The translations under genes were made by a program, and so were the position numbers. A DNA stretch of 64,000 nt from Brachybacterium alimentarium (GTDB lineage Bacteria; Actinomycetota; Actinomycetes; Actinomycetales; Dermabacteraceae), in contig NZ_NRGS01000003.1 in NCBI RefSeq assembly GCF_002332425.1, positions 90,964 to 154,963 of the forward strand, given 5' to 3'. Shown here piece after piece: positions 31,235 through 43,510 of the stretch (within the stretch, counting starts at the first letter, position 1; each line of letters starts with the position of its first letter). A model generated the notes under the pieces. It had not been told where the DNA came from. It saw only the letters and a list, made by a program, of their open reading frames with translations, and searched no databases.

Positions 31235-31276
31235 CTGCACGTCGCCCGGCTCCCCGATTGTCCTTATGACGTGCAG
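31235..31276. promoter_or_regulatory. Inverted repeat overlapping the terminator hairpin
   Basis: CTGCACGTC (31235-31243) is the exact reverse complement of GACGTGCAG (31268-31276), with a 24-nt loop. Its right arm shares two bases with the next, larger hairpin, so the two stems could compete in a transcript from the secA side. Confidence 0.5.
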
Positions 31277-31322
31277 ACGCACGGTGCCGGCACAGGATCA
31301 TCTGTGGCGGCACCGTGCGTCT
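31275..31322. terminator. Large hairpin between convergent secA and Rv3235-like genes
   Basis: A perfect 15-bp stem (AGACGCACGGTGCCG at 31275-31289 with its complement at 31308-31322) continues after one mismatch with six more pairs, one of them G-U, to a 4-nt loop. It lies between two convergent genes and is symmetric, so a bidirectional terminator is likely. An octamer repeat rather than a U-tract follows. Confidence 0.7.
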
Positions 31323-31345
31323 CTGCGTCTCTGCGTCTCTGCGTC
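31316..31345. repeat. Octanucleotide tandem repeat
   Basis: TGCGTCTC is repeated three times from 31316 to 31339 and followed by TGCGTC. The first unit overlaps the right arm of the hairpin at 31308-31322. Confidence 0.85.
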
Positions 31346-37191: not shown

Positions 37192-37289
37192 TCCTCGTCC
37201 TCCCTGGGGGATCGGTCCGCCACAGCCTAAGTCAGTGCCGACGCCGGTCGGCGTGCGCTGGCCCGATGATCGGCGTCTATCCTGATCAC

Positions 37290-38780
37290 ATGCCGAGCCT
37301 GTCCAAGTTCCTCACTGACGTCCGCGGTCTCTCCGAGAAGGAAGCCGACTGGCTGCAGCACCTGGTCGGGGATTGGAATCTGGTCTCCGACCTCCTCCGG
37401 TCCGACCTCGTGCTGTGGATCCAGACCCTGGAGGGCGCCCAGGCCGTCGCCCACTGCCGACCCGCGACCGGATCAACCGTGTACTACGAGGATCCCGTCG
37501 GGATCGTGCTGGACGAGGACACGGACTCCGAGATCCCCGCGCTGCTGAACGGGGCCGAGCCCACCCGTCGGCCGAGCACCATCGAACGGGAGGGCCGCGA
37601 GGCCTCGGGCCTGCTGGTCCCGGTGCGCAAGGACGGCCGCACCCTCGCGGTCCTGGCCACGGAGAGCCCGGTCCATGACGGCATGCGGTCCGCCAACGAG
37701 ATCCATCAGCACGACCTCGGCAGCCGGGTGCTGCGCATGCTGGAAGCCGGGGCGTTCCCGATCGAGGGCGCCCCGATCCCGCCTCGGCGCGGAGCGCCCC
37801 GCGTCGGCGACGGTGTGGTCGAGCTCGACGGCGGCGGAGTCGTGCAGTGGGCCTCACCCAATGCGCTGTCGGCGTTCCACCGCTTCGGCATCGAGGGATC
37901 GATGGAGGGGATCACCCTCGCCGAGCTCTCCACCGAGGTGCTGCAGTCCCGTTCACCCGTCGACGAGTCCCTGCCGCTGGTGCTCATGGGGCGCGCGGCC
38001 TGGCGCTCGGACATGCAGGCGCGCGGCGGAACCCTCTCGCTGCGGGCGGTCCCGCTGACCGAGCGCGGAGAGCGCACCGGCGCGATCATCCTGGTGCGCG
38101 ATGTGACCGAGCTGCGTCGTCGCGAACGGGAGCTGATCACCAAGGACGCGACGATCCGGGAGGTCCACCACCGGGTCAAGAACAATCTGCAGACGGTCGC
38201 TGCGCTGCTGCGCATGCAGTCGCGACGGATGACGTCCGACGAGGCGCGCGAGGCGGTGAACGAAGCGATGCGACGTGTGTCGACCATCGCGCTGGTGCAC
38301 GAGTCGCTGCTGCAGGGCTCCGAGGAGGCGGTCCACTTCGACGAGGTGATCGATCGCTGCCTGCGGTTGGCCGTGGACGCGGCGAGCGCCAGCGTGCATC
38401 GCGAGGGGACGCCGCGGCTCACCGAGAACCAGGTCGAGGTGCGCACCGAGAAGATCGGACGCGTGGGCACGATCCGTGCCGAGGAGGCGACGCCGCTGGC
38501 CCTGGTCGTCACCGAGCTGGCCACGAATGCTGTCGAGCACGGGCTCTCGGACTGCGGCGGCACCCTCACCGTGCGCAGCGAGCGGACGGGATCGCATCTG
38601 GTCATCACCATCGAGGACGATGGCGACGGGATGGGGATGGCCAAGCCGACCGGGCTGGGCACCAATATCGCCCTGACCCTGGTGCAGGGTCAGCTGGGCG
38701 GAACCCTGACCTGGGAGAGCCGCCCCGAGGGCGGCACCCGAGCACTGGTCGAGGTGTACCTGGACCCGCTGAGCATCTGA
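37290..38780 (+). CDS. pdtaS: PdtaS-like sensor histidine kinase
   Basis: 496 residues from the ATG at 37290. It is soluble, with no membrane helix. A GAF domain (about 10-150) and a PAS-like domain (about 165-275) precede a HisKA_2 dimerisation segment, REVHHRVKNNLQTVAALLRMQ, with His293/His294 as the phosphorylation site. An HATPase region with ELATNAVEHGL, IEDDGDGMG and GLGTNIALTLVQGQLGG follows. PdtaS phosphorylates PdtaR, an ANTAR antitermination regulator; pdtaR is not in this window. In mycobacteria pdtaS is close to whiB1, as here. Confidence 0.9.
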   Translation: MPSLSKFLTDVRGLSEKEADWLQHLVGDWNLVSDLLRSDLVLWIQTLEGAQAVAHCRPATGSTVYYEDPVGIVLDEDTDSEIPALLNGAEPTRRPSTIEREGREASGLLVPVRKDGRTLAVLATESPVHDGMRSANEIHQHDLGSRVLRMLEAGAFPIEGAPIPPRRGAPRVGDGVVELDGGGVVQWASPNALSAFHRFGIEGSMEGITLAELSTEVLQSRSPVDESLPLVLMGRAAWRSDMQARGGTLSLRAVPLTERGERTGAIILVRDVTELRRRERELITKDATIREVHHRVKNNLQTVAALLRMQSRRMTSDEAREAVNEAMRRVSTIALVHESLLQGSEEAVHFDEVIDRCLRLAVDAASASVHREGTPRLTENQVEVRTEKIGRVGTIRAEEATPLALVVTELATNAVEHGLSDCGGTLTVRSERTGSHLVITIEDDGDGMGMAKPTGLGTNIALTLVQGQLGGTLTWESRPEGGTRALVEVYLDPLSI

Positions 38781-38873: not shown

Positions 38874-39122
38874 TCAGCTGGCGCGGCGGGCGCGCGCGTT
38901 GCGGCGCTTGAGGGAGCGGCGCTCATCCTCGGAGAGGCCGCCCCAGACGCCTGAGTCCTGACCGGACTCGAGAGCGAACTTCAGGCAGGCGGTCATGACG
39001 TCGCACTTCTGGCACACCGCCTTCGCCTCCTGGATCTGCGTGATCGCCGGTCCCGTGTTCCCGATCGGGAAGAACAGCTCGGGATCATGGTTGAGGCACT
39101 CGGCACGGTGGCGCCAGTCCAT
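38874..39122 (-). CDS. whiB1: WhiB-family iron-sulfur regulator (WhiB1-like)
   Basis: 82 residues from the ATG at 39120-39122, the usual WhiB1 length; a frame to 39149 is open. Cluster-ligand cysteines are at 9, 37, 40 and 46, followed by the GVWGG turn (58-62) and a basic tail LKRRNARARR. WhiB1 binds the primary sigma factor and is essential in mycobacteria, with a nitric-oxide-sensitive [4Fe-4S] cluster. It converges on the PdtaS-like gene with only 93 bp between the stops. Confidence 0.93.
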   Translation of the reverse strand: MDWRHRAECLNHDPELFFPIGNTGPAITQIQEAKAVCQKCDVMTACLKFALESGQDSGVWGGLSEDERRSLKRRNARARRAS

Positions 39123-39461
39123 CGTCACTCTCTCTTTCCAGAACGCCACGCCTCACCCCGTGGGGCGTGACGCGGCGAGGGTCGCACCATCAAGGGGCGT
39201 TCTCGGATATCCGGCTCATCGTCGCGAATGCTGGTGCCGCGGACGAACCTGCGGATCGCGGCGTCGCGAGCGAGCCGACCTCCATTCTCTGGGGCGGTCG
39301 CGGACTCGACAAGGGCCTGGATGCCCGACCTGGGTGGCACTTCCCACACGGCTCCTCAGCGGCGTGATGCCCCGCACGGAAGCGTTGCGAAAGAGCGCCA
39401 GGAGTGCTTGGGGAGCGTCTCGTGGCGCGCCGCGGGAAGCCGGCACGGATACAGTTCCGTC
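39123..39461. other. Spacer between whiB1 and a membrane-protein gene; no gene seen
   Basis: These 339 bp separate divergent genes. A GGAAAGAGAGAG stretch reading leftwards is the likely whiB1 ribosome-binding region, and an imperfect inverted repeat ACGCC...GGCGT lies at about 39148-39168. Short open frames on both strands have no family features or ribosome-binding sites. Promoters for both genes must lie here, but I could not place them convincingly. Confidence 0.4.
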
Positions 39462-39911
39462 ATGCCCCGCAATGCCCAGCCCACCGGATCCAGCACGCCC
39501 CGTCGCGCCGACGGCCGACCCGCCGACGTCGAGGATCCCAGCCCGCGCCTGCGCCCGGCGGCGGCCGGGCTGCTCGGCATCGAGACGCTCCTGCTGCTCG
39601 CGGCGGCGACGTTCTGCTTCGTGATGGTCTCCGCCGGGAACCTGCATGCGCGCCTCGGGACAGGCCTGGGCATCTTCCTGATCATCTTCGCCGTCGGCAC
39701 TGCGCTCGCTTCGCGTTCGGTCCTGGTCAAGGGGCGTTTCGGTCTCGGCTACGGGATCACGTGGCAGATGTTCCAGGCCCTGGTCGCCTCGAGCATGCTG
39801 CGCGGCGGCATGTACTGGCAGGGTGCGCTCGGCCTGGCCCTCGCGATCGCGGTGTTCGTGCTGCTGCTGCGCCTGGTGCGCTCGACGCCGCTGCCGGATC
39901 GCGCGAGCTGA
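39462..39911 (+). CDS. Small four-helix membrane protein, unknown
   Basis: 149 residues from the ATG at 39462. A disordered Pro/Arg-rich N-terminus (1-33) precedes four hydrophobic segments (about 38-60, 65-85, 100-118 and 122-142) with short loops; GRFGLGYGITWQMFQALVASSM lies between helices two and three. It resembles small integral membrane proteins common in Actinobacteria beside whiB1, with no assigned function. The stop codon is the first three bases of a 25-nt tandem array. Confidence 0.72.
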   Translation: MPRNAQPTGSSTPRRADGRPADVEDPSPRLRPAAAGLLGIETLLLLAAATFCFVMVSAGNLHARLGTGLGIFLIIFAVGTALASRSVLVKGRFGLGYGITWQMFQALVASSMLRGGMYWQGALGLALAIAVFVLLLRLVRSTPLPDRAS

Positions 39912-40033
39912 CGCGCACCTGCAGCGCCCGGACGGACGCGAAACCGGGGCCCCGCGCCTGACGCGCAACCCGAGCCCCGTGCTTGACGCACAGCCGGAGC
40001 CCCGTGCTTGACGCGCAGCCCCGGTTCCTGTCG
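39909..40033. repeat. 25-nt tandem repeat starting at a stop codon
   Basis: Five 25-nt units start at 39909, 39934, 39959, 39984 and 40009. Units 3 and 4 are most alike, with a core of TGACGC.CA.CC..AGCCCCGTGCT; units 1, 2 and 5 are more diverged. Unit 1 begins with the TGA stop codon (39909-39911). Units 3, 4 and 5 also begin TGA, each shifted by one frame. Confidence 0.8.
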
Positions 40034-40061
40034 GGCGATGCCCGGCCGACGGTGCGCGCTG

Positions 40062-40117
40062 CCGCATCAGACAGGCCCCGCTCCGGAGCGCTCCGGAGCG
40101 GGGCCTGTCTGATGCGG
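40062..40117. terminator. Perfect 56-nt palindrome between convergent genes
   Basis: Every one of 28 base pairs around the centre at 40089/40090 is complementary, with no fixed loop. It lies 13 nt before the end of the FtsX-like permease gene and after the stop-codon repeat array of the membrane-protein gene. It contains nested CTCCGGAGCG repeats at the centre. As RNA it would form a very stable hairpin from either strand, so it is best explained as a bidirectional terminator. As DNA it could extrude a cruciform. Confidence 0.8.
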
Positions 40118-40130
40118 GGCCTGTGGCGTC

Positions 40131-42647
40131 TCAGTCCGCGTCGGCCAGGGCGGCGGCCGGAGCCGTCCGTGCGGCGGCGCGGCCCGGCAGCACCGAGGCG
40201 AGGACGCCGGCGAGGAGGGCGAGCACCAGCACGAGGCCGAGCTGGCCCCAGGGGATGGTGATCGAGACCGGGTACGTCGAGCCCAGCAGGGCATTGATGC
40301 CGAGGACCCCGTAGACGCTGCCCAGCACAATGCCGAGCACCGCCCCGACCAGGGCGAGCAGCACGCCCTCCCAGCCGAGCATCGCCCGCATCTGGCGCCG
40401 GGTGGTCCCCAGAGCACGCAGCAGGGCATTCTCCCCGGTGCGTTCGATGACGCCGAGGCTGAGCGTGTTCGCGACGCCCACGAGGGCGACCAGCACGGCG
40501 ACGGCCAGCAGCGCGATCGTGATGCCGAGCAGGATCGAGAGGATCTGCGCGTACGACTCCCGCTCCGTCCCGCCGAAGTCCGCGGAGGCCTCCGAGTAGC
40601 CCTCGCCCGAGATCTGCTGGTTCACGGCGTCGACGAGGTCCAGTGCGGTGATGCCCTCGCGCGCCGCGGTGCCCGGGTCCGCGAAATCGCCCAGCACCAC
40701 CGGATCGGTGCTCTTCCCGAGCAGCTGCTCGAGGGTCGCCGGGGTCACGAGCGACATCTGCAGGTTCGCGTCGACCTGCACCGTCAGCTCATGCTCCGCG
40801 CCGTCGGCGCCCTGGACCTGCAGGACCTCGCCATCGGTCACGTCGAAGCGCTCGGCCCGCTCCTCGCCCAGCAGGACGATGCCGTCGCTCAGCTCGTCGG
40901 CCATCTCGGGCCGATGGGAAACCTCCCGGACCGTCTCGGGGTCTGCGCCGTAGAGCGTCATGGGCTCCTCGACGTCGACGTCGATGTCTCCGCGGGCGGC
41001 GGCGTGGGCGGAGTCCATGCCGTCGATCTCCGCGGTCTTCTCCGCGGCGTCCTCCGGCATCTCGGCGGCGGAGACGACCAGGTCGATCGGTCGACGGGAG
41101 TCGAGCTCGGAGGTGAGCGTCGCCTCCGCGGTCCGCGCCCCGACGGCCATCATCGTCATCAGGGTGGTCCCGATCAGCAGCGCAGCGATGGTGGCGGCGC
41201 TGCGGCGGGGATTGCGGGCGACGTTCGCGCCGGCGATCCGCGCGGGCAGCCCGCCGAGACGTCCCACGATCCGCCCGGCGAGAGCGGACAGCGGACGGGT
41301 CGCGATCACCAGGGTCATCAGCACGCCCGTGAAGCTGAGGACGCCTCCCACCATCGCGAGCAGGATGCCGAGCGCGGCAGCATCGCTGGTCAGGGCGAGG
41401 GCGGTGCCGCCTGCCATGACGGCGATGCCGAGCACGACGGCGACCAGGCCGAGGATGCCGCGCACGCCCAGGCCGCGCTGCTGTGCAGGCGGTGCGGGAC
41501 GCAGAGCCTGCAGCGGTGCGACCTTGGTGGCGGAGCGCATCGGGGCGAAGCTCGCCCCCAGGGTGATGGCGACCCCGGCGAAGATCGGCAGCAGCACCGA
41601 CCAGAGGCTCACCGGAACGAGCACGAGACCGTCCATCCAGCCGATGCCGGCGGCAGCGGCCAGCGCCGCCTGTGCCAGGAGATGGCCTCCGAGCACGCCG
41701 AGGAGCGACCCGACCAGTCCGACCGTCAGCGATTCCCGCAGCACCACGCTGCGCACCTGCGAGCGGGTCGCACCGAGGGTGCGCAGTAGTGCGAGGCTGC
41801 GGGTGCGCTGGGCGATGGTCACGGCGAAGGTGTTCGCGATGACGACGGCGCTGGTGAACAGGGCGATCACCACGAAGACGGCGAGCACCATCGCGAGGGC
41901 ACCGAAGCCCTGCATGAACTGACCTGCGGCCTCCTCCTCGGCCTCGTCGACCGTGCGCACCGTGAGGTCGCCGGCGGAGGCGTCCGCAGCGACGTCCGCG
42001 GGGTCGGTGCCTTCCGGCACGGTGGCGAGCCACTTGTCGGTGATGGTCCCGGCCGTCGGCCCGAGGAGCGTCTGGGCATCGGCCTCGGAGACCAGGACGC
42101 GCGGGGTGCCGCCGAACGCGGCGCCGTCTGCCGTCGGTGCAATGCCGACGACGGTCAGCTCCTGCTCCGTGCCGCTGGGCGAGAAGTCGGCGGGCTGGAC
42201 GACGGTGTCGTCCAGCGTCACTCCGAGCTGATCCGCGGCAGAGGCGTCGAGCACGACCTCGGAGTCGGACGTCGCGGCTCTGCCCTCCGACAGATAGCGC
42301 TCGCCGGCGTCCCCCGGGGGGAGCATGGCGGTGGTGAGGAAGACGCCGTCACCGTCCGGTGAGTCGAGCTGGATGTAGTCCATCAGCTGAGGCCATACGG
42401 CGTCGGCGCCGGGCACCTCGGGCGGATCCAGCGGGTCCTCGGAGGACCAGTCCTCGTCGGAGAGGGGGCGTTCGATCTGGAGGTCCGCGCCGTCGAACTG
42501 CTGGGCGGCCTGGGAGCGCAGCGAGGACTGCATGAGGTTCCCGGCCAGCACCATGACGGCGACGAAGGTGCAGGACAGCGCGATGGTGAGGACGGCGGCG
42601 AAATGTCGACGCAGCGGGGTGAGCTTCACGGGGGTACGACGGGCCAT
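40131..42647 (-). CDS. FtsX-like ABC permease (MacB/LolC type), two-module
   Basis: 838 residues. An N-terminal helix (about 18-40) and a large extracytoplasmic MacB_PCD-like domain (about 45-235) precede helices near 245-270, 300-325 and 335-365 (first FtsX domain). Three or four linker helices (about 395-460) and a second extracytoplasmic domain (490-690) follow, then the last three helices of a second FtsX domain (about 700-820). Such proteins pair with an ATPase for export of peptides, lipids or drugs, or for envelope stress. Its ATG overlaps the ATPase stop codon by one base. Confidence 0.9.
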   Translation of the reverse strand: MARRTPVKLTPLRRHFAAVLTIALSCTFVAVMVLAGNLMQSSLRSQAAQQFDGADLQIERPLSDEDWSSEDPLDPPEVPGADAVWPQLMDYIQLDSPDGDGVFLTTAMLPPGDAGERYLSEGRAATSDSEVVLDASAADQLGVTLDDTVVQPADFSPSGTEQELTVVGIAPTADGAAFGGTPRVLVSEADAQTLLGPTAGTITDKWLATVPEGTDPADVAADASAGDLTVRTVDEAEEEAAGQFMQGFGALAMVLAVFVVIALFTSAVVIANTFAVTIAQRTRSLALLRTLGATRSQVRSVVLRESLTVGLVGSLLGVLGGHLLAQAALAAAAGIGWMDGLVLVPVSLWSVLLPIFAGVAITLGASFAPMRSATKVAPLQALRPAPPAQQRGLGVRGILGLVAVVLGIAVMAGGTALALTSDAAALGILLAMVGGVLSFTGVLMTLVIATRPLSALAGRIVGRLGGLPARIAGANVARNPRRSAATIAALLIGTTLMTMMAVGARTAEATLTSELDSRRPIDLVVSAAEMPEDAAEKTAEIDGMDSAHAAARGDIDVDVEEPMTLYGADPETVREVSHRPEMADELSDGIVLLGEERAERFDVTDGEVLQVQGADGAEHELTVQVDANLQMSLVTPATLEQLLGKSTDPVVLGDFADPGTAAREGITALDLVDAVNQQISGEGYSEASADFGGTERESYAQILSILLGITIALLAVAVLVALVGVANTLSLGVIERTGENALLRALGTTRRQMRAMLGWEGVLLALVGAVLGIVLGSVYGVLGINALLGSTYPVSITIPWGQLGLVLVLALLAGVLASVLPGRAAARTAPAAALADAD

Positions 42648-43438
42648 CAGCGCTGCCCTCGCAGGTCCTCGTCGTTCGCGATGCGACCGTCGGCGAGGGT
42701 GAGGATCCGGTCGGCGCGCTCGGCGGCGTCGCGCTCATGGGTGACCATTACGACGGTCTGCCCGAACTGGTCCACGGACAGCCGCAGGAACTCCAGGACC
42801 TCCTCGGTGGTCTGGGAGTCGAGGTTGCCGGTGGGCTCGTCGGCGAACACCACCTCGGGGGAGGTCACTAGGGCGCGCGCGATCGCGACCCGCTGGACCT
42901 GACCGCCGGAGAGCTGGGAGGGCAGATGCGAGAGCCGGTCGCCGATCCCGAACGCTTCGGTGATGGTCTCGAGCCAGGCGCGGTCCACGCGCTTGCCGGA
43001 GAGCTCCAACGGCAGCAGGATGTTCTGCTCGGCGCTCAGCATCGGCAGCAGGTTGAAGGACTGGAAGACGAAGCCGATGCGCTCACGGCGCAGCACGGTC
43101 AGCGCGTCGTCCGACAGGTCGGTGATCTCCGTGTCGCCGATCCGGATCGATCCGCCGTCCACGACGTCGAGCCCGGCCAGGGTGTGCAGGAGCGTGGATT
43201 TGCCCGATCCCGAGGGACCCATGATCGCGGTGAAGGCTCCACGGACGACGTCGAGATCGACGTGGTCCAGCGCCGTGACGACGCCGGCCCCGGTGCCGTA
43301 GGTGCGGGTGATGCCGCGGGCGATGATCGCGGGAGCTTCCGTGCCGGTGGCGCCGTGCGCGAGGGCGCCCGCCGCCGTGCCGGTCGAGCCGTCGGGACCG
43401 TCGGACGGGGTCGAGCTGGCGAGATGCTGGGAGGTCAT
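42647..43438 (-). CDS. ABC transporter ATPase, MacB/LolD type
   Basis: 263 residues from the ATG at 43436-43438 with AAGGA upstream; the frame runs on to 43489. Walker A is GPSGSGKST, the signature LSGGQVQRV and Walker B VVFADEPTGNLD, typical of the LolD/MacB branch, with switch His in MVTHERD. An N-terminal Ala/Gly/Thr-rich extension of about 35 residues is unusual. It energises the adjacent two-module FtsX-like permease. The nearby NarL-type kinase/regulator pair upstream is a common arrangement and may control it. Confidence 0.92.
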   Translation of the reverse strand: MTSQHLASSTPSDGPDGSTGTAAGALAHGATGTEAPAIIARGITRTYGTGAGVVTALDHVDLDVVRGAFTAIMGPSGSGKSTLLHTLAGLDVVDGGSIRIGDTEITDLSDDALTVLRRERIGFVFQSFNLLPMLSAEQNILLPLELSGKRVDRAWLETITEAFGIGDRLSHLPSQLSGGQVQRVAIARALVTSPEVVFADEPTGNLDSQTTEEVLEFLRLSVDQFGQTVVMVTHERDAAERADRILTLADGRIANDEDLRGQR

Positions 43439-43510
43439 GGGGATCCTTCGGAGGGGGTGTCGGGTCGATGTCGATCCTCTCCTGGGCAAGCTCCCGGTTC
43501 GTCAGCCTCC

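Follow-up and report, generated by a model that had tools for sequence, protein, structure and literature searches.

A perfect 56-nt palindrome between convergent genes of Brachybacterium alimentarium is probably a two-way transcription terminator

The stretch of Brachybacterium alimentarium DNA analysed here (the window, 64,000 nt) is part of contig C3 of a 3.98 Mb genome assembled in 67 contigs, and it contains a palindrome of 56 nt (40062-40117) in the gap between two convergent genes. The gene on the minus strand encodes an FtsX/MacB-type ABC transporter permease (40131-42647), recognized by its open reading frame, by the Pfam families PF02687 and PF12704 and by its tblastn relatives. Its stop is placed 13 nt from the palindrome, and upstream of it lies a gene encoding an ABC ATPase (42647-43489, Pfam ABC_tran). 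When the permease was searched against named genomes, 20 of the 22 loci carried the label Brachybacterium and the other two belonged to an 'Actinomycetales bacterium' MAG and to Nigerium massiliense. The gene on the plus strand (39228-39911) encodes a conserved small protein that by eye is hydrophobic, and the gene stops 150 nt from the palindrome. This open reading frame has tblastn relatives at other loci, and since their matches begin at about residue 67-75 its true start is probably located downstream. A Pfam search of 39480-39908 gave no match for the small protein. The gap also holds, before the palindrome, a degenerate 25-bp tandem repeat on the plus strand (39935-40017; 3.3 copies by TRF, consensus GACGCGCAACCGGAGCCCCGTGCTT, family D1), with about three to five degenerate copies across 39908-40032. 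This part was matched weakly by relatives, at E 1e-4 or worse among the matches listed. The genes encoding a PdtaS-like histidine kinase (37266-38780, plus strand) and a WhiB-family regulator (38874-39149, minus strand), both assigned by Pfam, are likewise convergent.

The sequence-only reading of this DNA had described a perfect palindrome of 28 + 28 nt with no spacer, lying between convergent genes, and both statements were borne out. An inverted-repeat search gave two arms (40062-40089 and 40090-40117) of 28 nt each, 100% complementary and with 0 nt between them, and a direct check confirmed that the 56-mer is its own reverse complement; the plus-strand open reading frame ends at 39911 and the minus-strand one occupies 40131-42647. 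Among the best 25 of the 45 inverted pairs found in the window (arms within 100 nt) this pair is the first by length. A second long hairpin of the window, at 31268-31329, has 28-nt arms that are 86% complementary with 6 nt between them. Counted pair by pair with independent bases, the chance expectation of such a palindrome without spacer is 7.5e-11 in 64 kb at the GC content of the window (0.707), and about 5e-8 in 4 Mb if loops of 0-10 are allowed. The RNA fold of the palindrome has an energy of -60.9 kcal/mol, compared with a mean of -22.9 for shuffled sequences (z -11.8), and none of 200 shuffles equalled it. Either strand is predicted to give an RNA hairpin in which a 26-bp stem carries the 4-nt loop GCGC (40088-40091), which is self-complementary. 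Moreover, an Rfam search of 39500-40700 listed 15 matches, none of which reached its gathering cut-off (the best had 42.8 bits against 79, for a microRNA model), and membership of a known RNA family was therefore rejected; most of these matches were to microRNA models, as is expected of any long hairpin.

The same junction was located in other genomes by tblastn anchors in the permease and small-protein genes, which gave 30 distinct loci at which the pair is convergent, the window included; they are an uneven sample, part of which was retrieved with the junction itself as query. Hairpins were sought in the gap extended by 40 nt into each gene, with loops of up to 10 nt and a score of pairs minus two per mismatch. 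The best hairpin scored at least 12 at 18 loci, 11 at one, 10 at three and 6-9 at the eight loci where it is poor, which places 22 of the 30 at a score of at least 10. In 19 loci it exceeded every control taken from inside the permease gene (maximum 10; 20 random stretches of the same length per locus). The strong hairpins (score of at least 11) sit 13-74 nt past the permease stop, and those of the 18 loci other than the window have loops of 1-10 nt. Their place is constant while the letters of the stem vary, being AGGACGGGCCCCGCTCCGGA with loop GCGA in L080, GACGGGCCCCGCACCGGAG in L008 and GAAGGGCCCGGAGGA in L084; L080 carries the same core as the window, as a 44-nt hairpin in the same place. 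Four further loci (L078, L090, L019 and L021; best scores 9, 7, 16 and 10) were kept outside the 30 as no partner gene was detected, and another four (L022, L026, L028 and L029) as they had no permease match. Judging from these sequences, what the genus keeps at this junction is a hairpin and not a unique sequence.

Pairing was then counted in an alignment of 12 stems, from which L081, L082, L084 and L094 were excluded, as they have other stems and were misaligned in a version of 16 rows. In this alignment 78.5% of the cells pair, against 34-48% when the partners are slid by 1-3 columns, although the rows were picked for good hairpins that could be aligned and the percentage is thereby biased towards structure. 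The covariation score was 0.266 compared with 0.152 after shuffling, and 34 cells were changed on both sides compared with 21; in neither case did any of 500 shuffles reach the observed value. Two other measures showed a modest excess, namely the pairs with a change on both sides (13 of 26 against 10.8, reached by 45 of 500 shuffles) and the pair types (31 against 26.8, reached by 42 of 500). RNAalifold, to which no structure had been supplied, returned 18 consensus pairs, corresponding to a stem core common to the relatives (40069-40110) with the consensus GGACGGGCCCCGCACCGGA ... TCCGGTGCGGGGCCCGTC in the sense of the permease. The outer seven pairs of the stem of the window were unpaired in 51 of 83 cells of the 12-row alignment, so the extra stem length is largely the window's own.

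Long hairpins were also counted in 464 kb of the same genome (the window and 20 further stretches), using a score with three per mismatch and a threshold of 12. This sample contains 30 hairpins, 12 between convergent genes, 10 between tandem genes, three between divergent genes, three inside genes and two at the edges of stretches, while three were found in a first-order random sequence of the same length, the best with a score of 12. The palindrome has the top score (28, the next being 22) and the longest perfect stem of them all. In 380 kb of the genome of a relative, G004, there were 22 hairpins (10 convergent, eight tandem, one divergent, two inside genes and one at an edge), against three in the control sequence with a best score of 15. 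In terms of gene pairs there are 12 hairpins per 65 convergent pairs and 13 per 239 other pairs in the 464 kb, and 10 per 55 and 9 per 218, respectively, in G004. The Fisher p value for the enrichment in both genomes pooled is 6e-6, and it is a rough one because gene calling relied on a crude GC3 script (the G004 copy of the junction, L063, was filed as tandem, and some 'convergent' hairpins lie more than 700 nt from any called gene), a few junctions with two hairpins were entered as two, and a palindrome was the reason for sampling the window and two stretches of G004. PMC1590033 also describes that, in the bacteria it examined, stem-loops favour convergent over divergent gaps; the hairpins counted here share that preference, and the palindrome differs in that no other of the 30 in 464 kb has a perfect stem as long.

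We consider that the palindrome is probably a bidirectional transcription terminator, and a 3'-end hairpin, of the U-poor type with a long stem that occurs in high-GC actinobacteria. A two-way terminator had been the first choice of the sequence-only reading and is the best supported one after the present analysis, given the hairpin at the same junction in 22 of 30 loci, the stems that have been paired anew and the convergent enrichment. This interpretation is supported by the position between convergent stops 13 and 150 nt away, by the recurrence of a strong hairpin at the junction (18 of 30 loci at a score of at least 12, 19 at a score of at least 11), by the paired changes in the aligned stems, by the preference of long hairpins for convergent junctions and by the strength of the fold. 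RNA polymerase that has transcribed the ABC permease operon on the minus strand, or the small-protein gene on the plus strand, would go on to transcribe the same palindrome, and either RNA would form the 26-bp GC-rich hairpin, which would halt the polymerase and shield the new 3' end. Termination at the palindrome would prevent either convergent unit from producing long antisense RNA. We infer that transcripts of both strands end at the palindrome and that selection acts on the RNA hairpin and not on the DNA.

The palindrome does not have all the features of a canonical L-shaped intrinsic terminator. The GC-rich hairpin soon after a stop is found on the permease side, at 13 nt, but the U-rich tract directly after the stem is absent on both strands (the 8 nt that follow the stem contain two U on the plus strand and none on the minus strand), and a scan for canonical terminators returned no site. 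The strong hairpin followed by few U agrees with the U-lacking, I-shaped kind. Such terminators are expected within about 50 nt of a stop codon, to which the 13 nt of the permease conform and the 150 nt of the plus-strand gene do not. A hairpin that is predicted to form from either strand between convergent genes is also what a bidirectional terminator would have. PMC12288462 describes I-shaped terminators without poly-U in mycobacteria, as well as a scarcity of intrinsic terminators and a dominance of Rho, and its reference list contains titles for and against the need of a U-tract. The palindrome resembles those terminators in being a GC-rich hairpin without poly-U tail less than 50 nt from the permease stop, and it differs in the stop of the opposite strand, 150 nt away, and in that its termination is a prediction. 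The terminator interpretation is weakened by the absence of a U-tract on both strands, by the eight loci with a poor hairpin, by the two covariation measures that are modestly above shuffles in rows picked for good hairpins, by the distance of the plus-strand stop and by the dominance of Rho over scarce intrinsic terminators in mycobacteria.

The closest parallels come from Term-seq of Streptomyces clavuligerus, for which PMC8269248 reports 353 highly structured 3' ends lacking U, as well as bidirectional ends whose stems are longer, whose loops are shorter and which are read through less. The palindrome is like them in belonging to a high-GC actinobacterium, in its very stable stem and short loop, in having fewer than three U among the 8 nt beyond the stem and in being usable from both strands. 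The ends of S. clavuligerus were mapped on transcripts, whereas an end at the palindrome is predicted from its DNA letters. A search of the literature for Brachybacterium and terminator gave no transcription-termination title among the matches listed, by which no absence from print is claimed.

The hairpin might instead be a stabilizer or processing end of the mRNA, with transcription stopping further on (by Rho or by collision of polymerases) and a 3' exonuclease trimming the transcript back to the stem. This deserves serious attention even though we lean against it, and as it is compatible with a terminator role the likelihoods of the two overlap. The absence of a U-tract and the plus-strand stop codon 150 nt upstream are in its favour, as is the fact that PMC8269248 leaves undecided whether U-lacking structured ends are I-shaped terminators or the ends of transcripts terminated by Rho. 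Nevertheless the 13-nt distance to the permease and the convergent enrichment fit a terminator equally well.

The perfect symmetry without spacer is written in the DNA letters themselves and could suggest a DNA-level element, such as a cruciform or a site at which a dimeric protein or a recombinase binds. We regard this as very improbable, as the relatives retain a hairpin in its place while changing its sequence, the loops at the 18 other loci are of 1-10 nt, the genome holds one copy and only three of the 30 sampled long hairpins are between divergent genes. The cruciform or protein-binding site that had been mentioned earlier as a possibility therefore gained no support, sequence and loop being changed between species. 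The absence of a spacer itself is incidental, the loop being self-complementary by chance. Inner stems nearly identical to that of the window have, in the sense of the permease, the loop TCGC in L074 and L093 and GCGA in L080 where the window has GCGC (the loop of L084 is likewise TCGC), and the change of one base to a self-complementary GCGC turns a hairpin into a spacerless palindrome. As the loops of the relatives differ, perfect symmetry of the DNA is not the conserved property. According to PMC13155455, the commonest spacer of bacterial inverted repeats is 4 bp, and inverted repeats near terminators have more variants in their spacers and fewer in their arms than those elsewhere.

As to how the perfect stem arose, two copies of the 11-mer GCGGGGCCTGT are found in 40098-40124 at a distance of 16 nt, one within the stem and the other across its outer edge (40114-40124), and they might reflect template switching or a duplication. 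It is conceivable, although we hold it with more doubt than belief, that the stem was recently lengthened and perfected by template switching during replication, in which case the terminator core would be much older than the outer seven or so pairs, and the perfect pairing would be a by-product of mutation and not of selection.

A false fold-back made by the assembly is very improbable. Runs of N are present at the centre of two other inverted repeats of the sampled genome (L034:8924-8963 and L052:6185-6186), which points to breaks of the assembly at strong hairpins or to masking of such stretches, and this assembly may indeed struggle at hairpins. Nevertheless the window contains no N, the flanks of the palindrome differ and the same core forms the 44-nt hairpin of L080 in the same place.

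A dispersed mobile palindrome of REP or MITE type was rejected on searches of the genome for copies, of plasmid and phage collections and of the genus for the stem core, and is the least credible of the alternatives: the 26-mer of the arm, with up to three mismatches, matches the two arms of this palindrome alone and there are no near-identical copies; the plasmid collection gave two records (the better a weak match over the left arm in Streptomyces subrutilus, E 0.07, 85.7%) and the phage collection three (E 0.3, outside the stem), none of them significant; and the same junction has a hairpin across species. The check for further genome copies and, in the plasmid and phage collections, for a known mobile palindrome, proposed by the sequence-only reading, came out negative. 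Cores of the form AGGCCCCGC..GCGGGGCCT do occur, at 53 sites spread over 26 of 38 genomes of the genus, against 12 sites for a reversed control pattern, but there are 0-4 per genome with varied inner stems and loops, and on these sequences they appear to be a favoured stem composition and not a copied element. The looser pattern GGGCC..GGCCC was uninformative in the window's own genome (983 sites versus 1599 for its control).

Most likely, then, the palindrome is an ordinary two-way terminator with an unusually long stem and not a new kind of element. It offers a clean case of a structure that the genus retains at one convergent junction under changing letters, and as a natural hairpin with a long stem it could serve to ask whether the RNA polymerase of actinobacteria stops without a U-tract.
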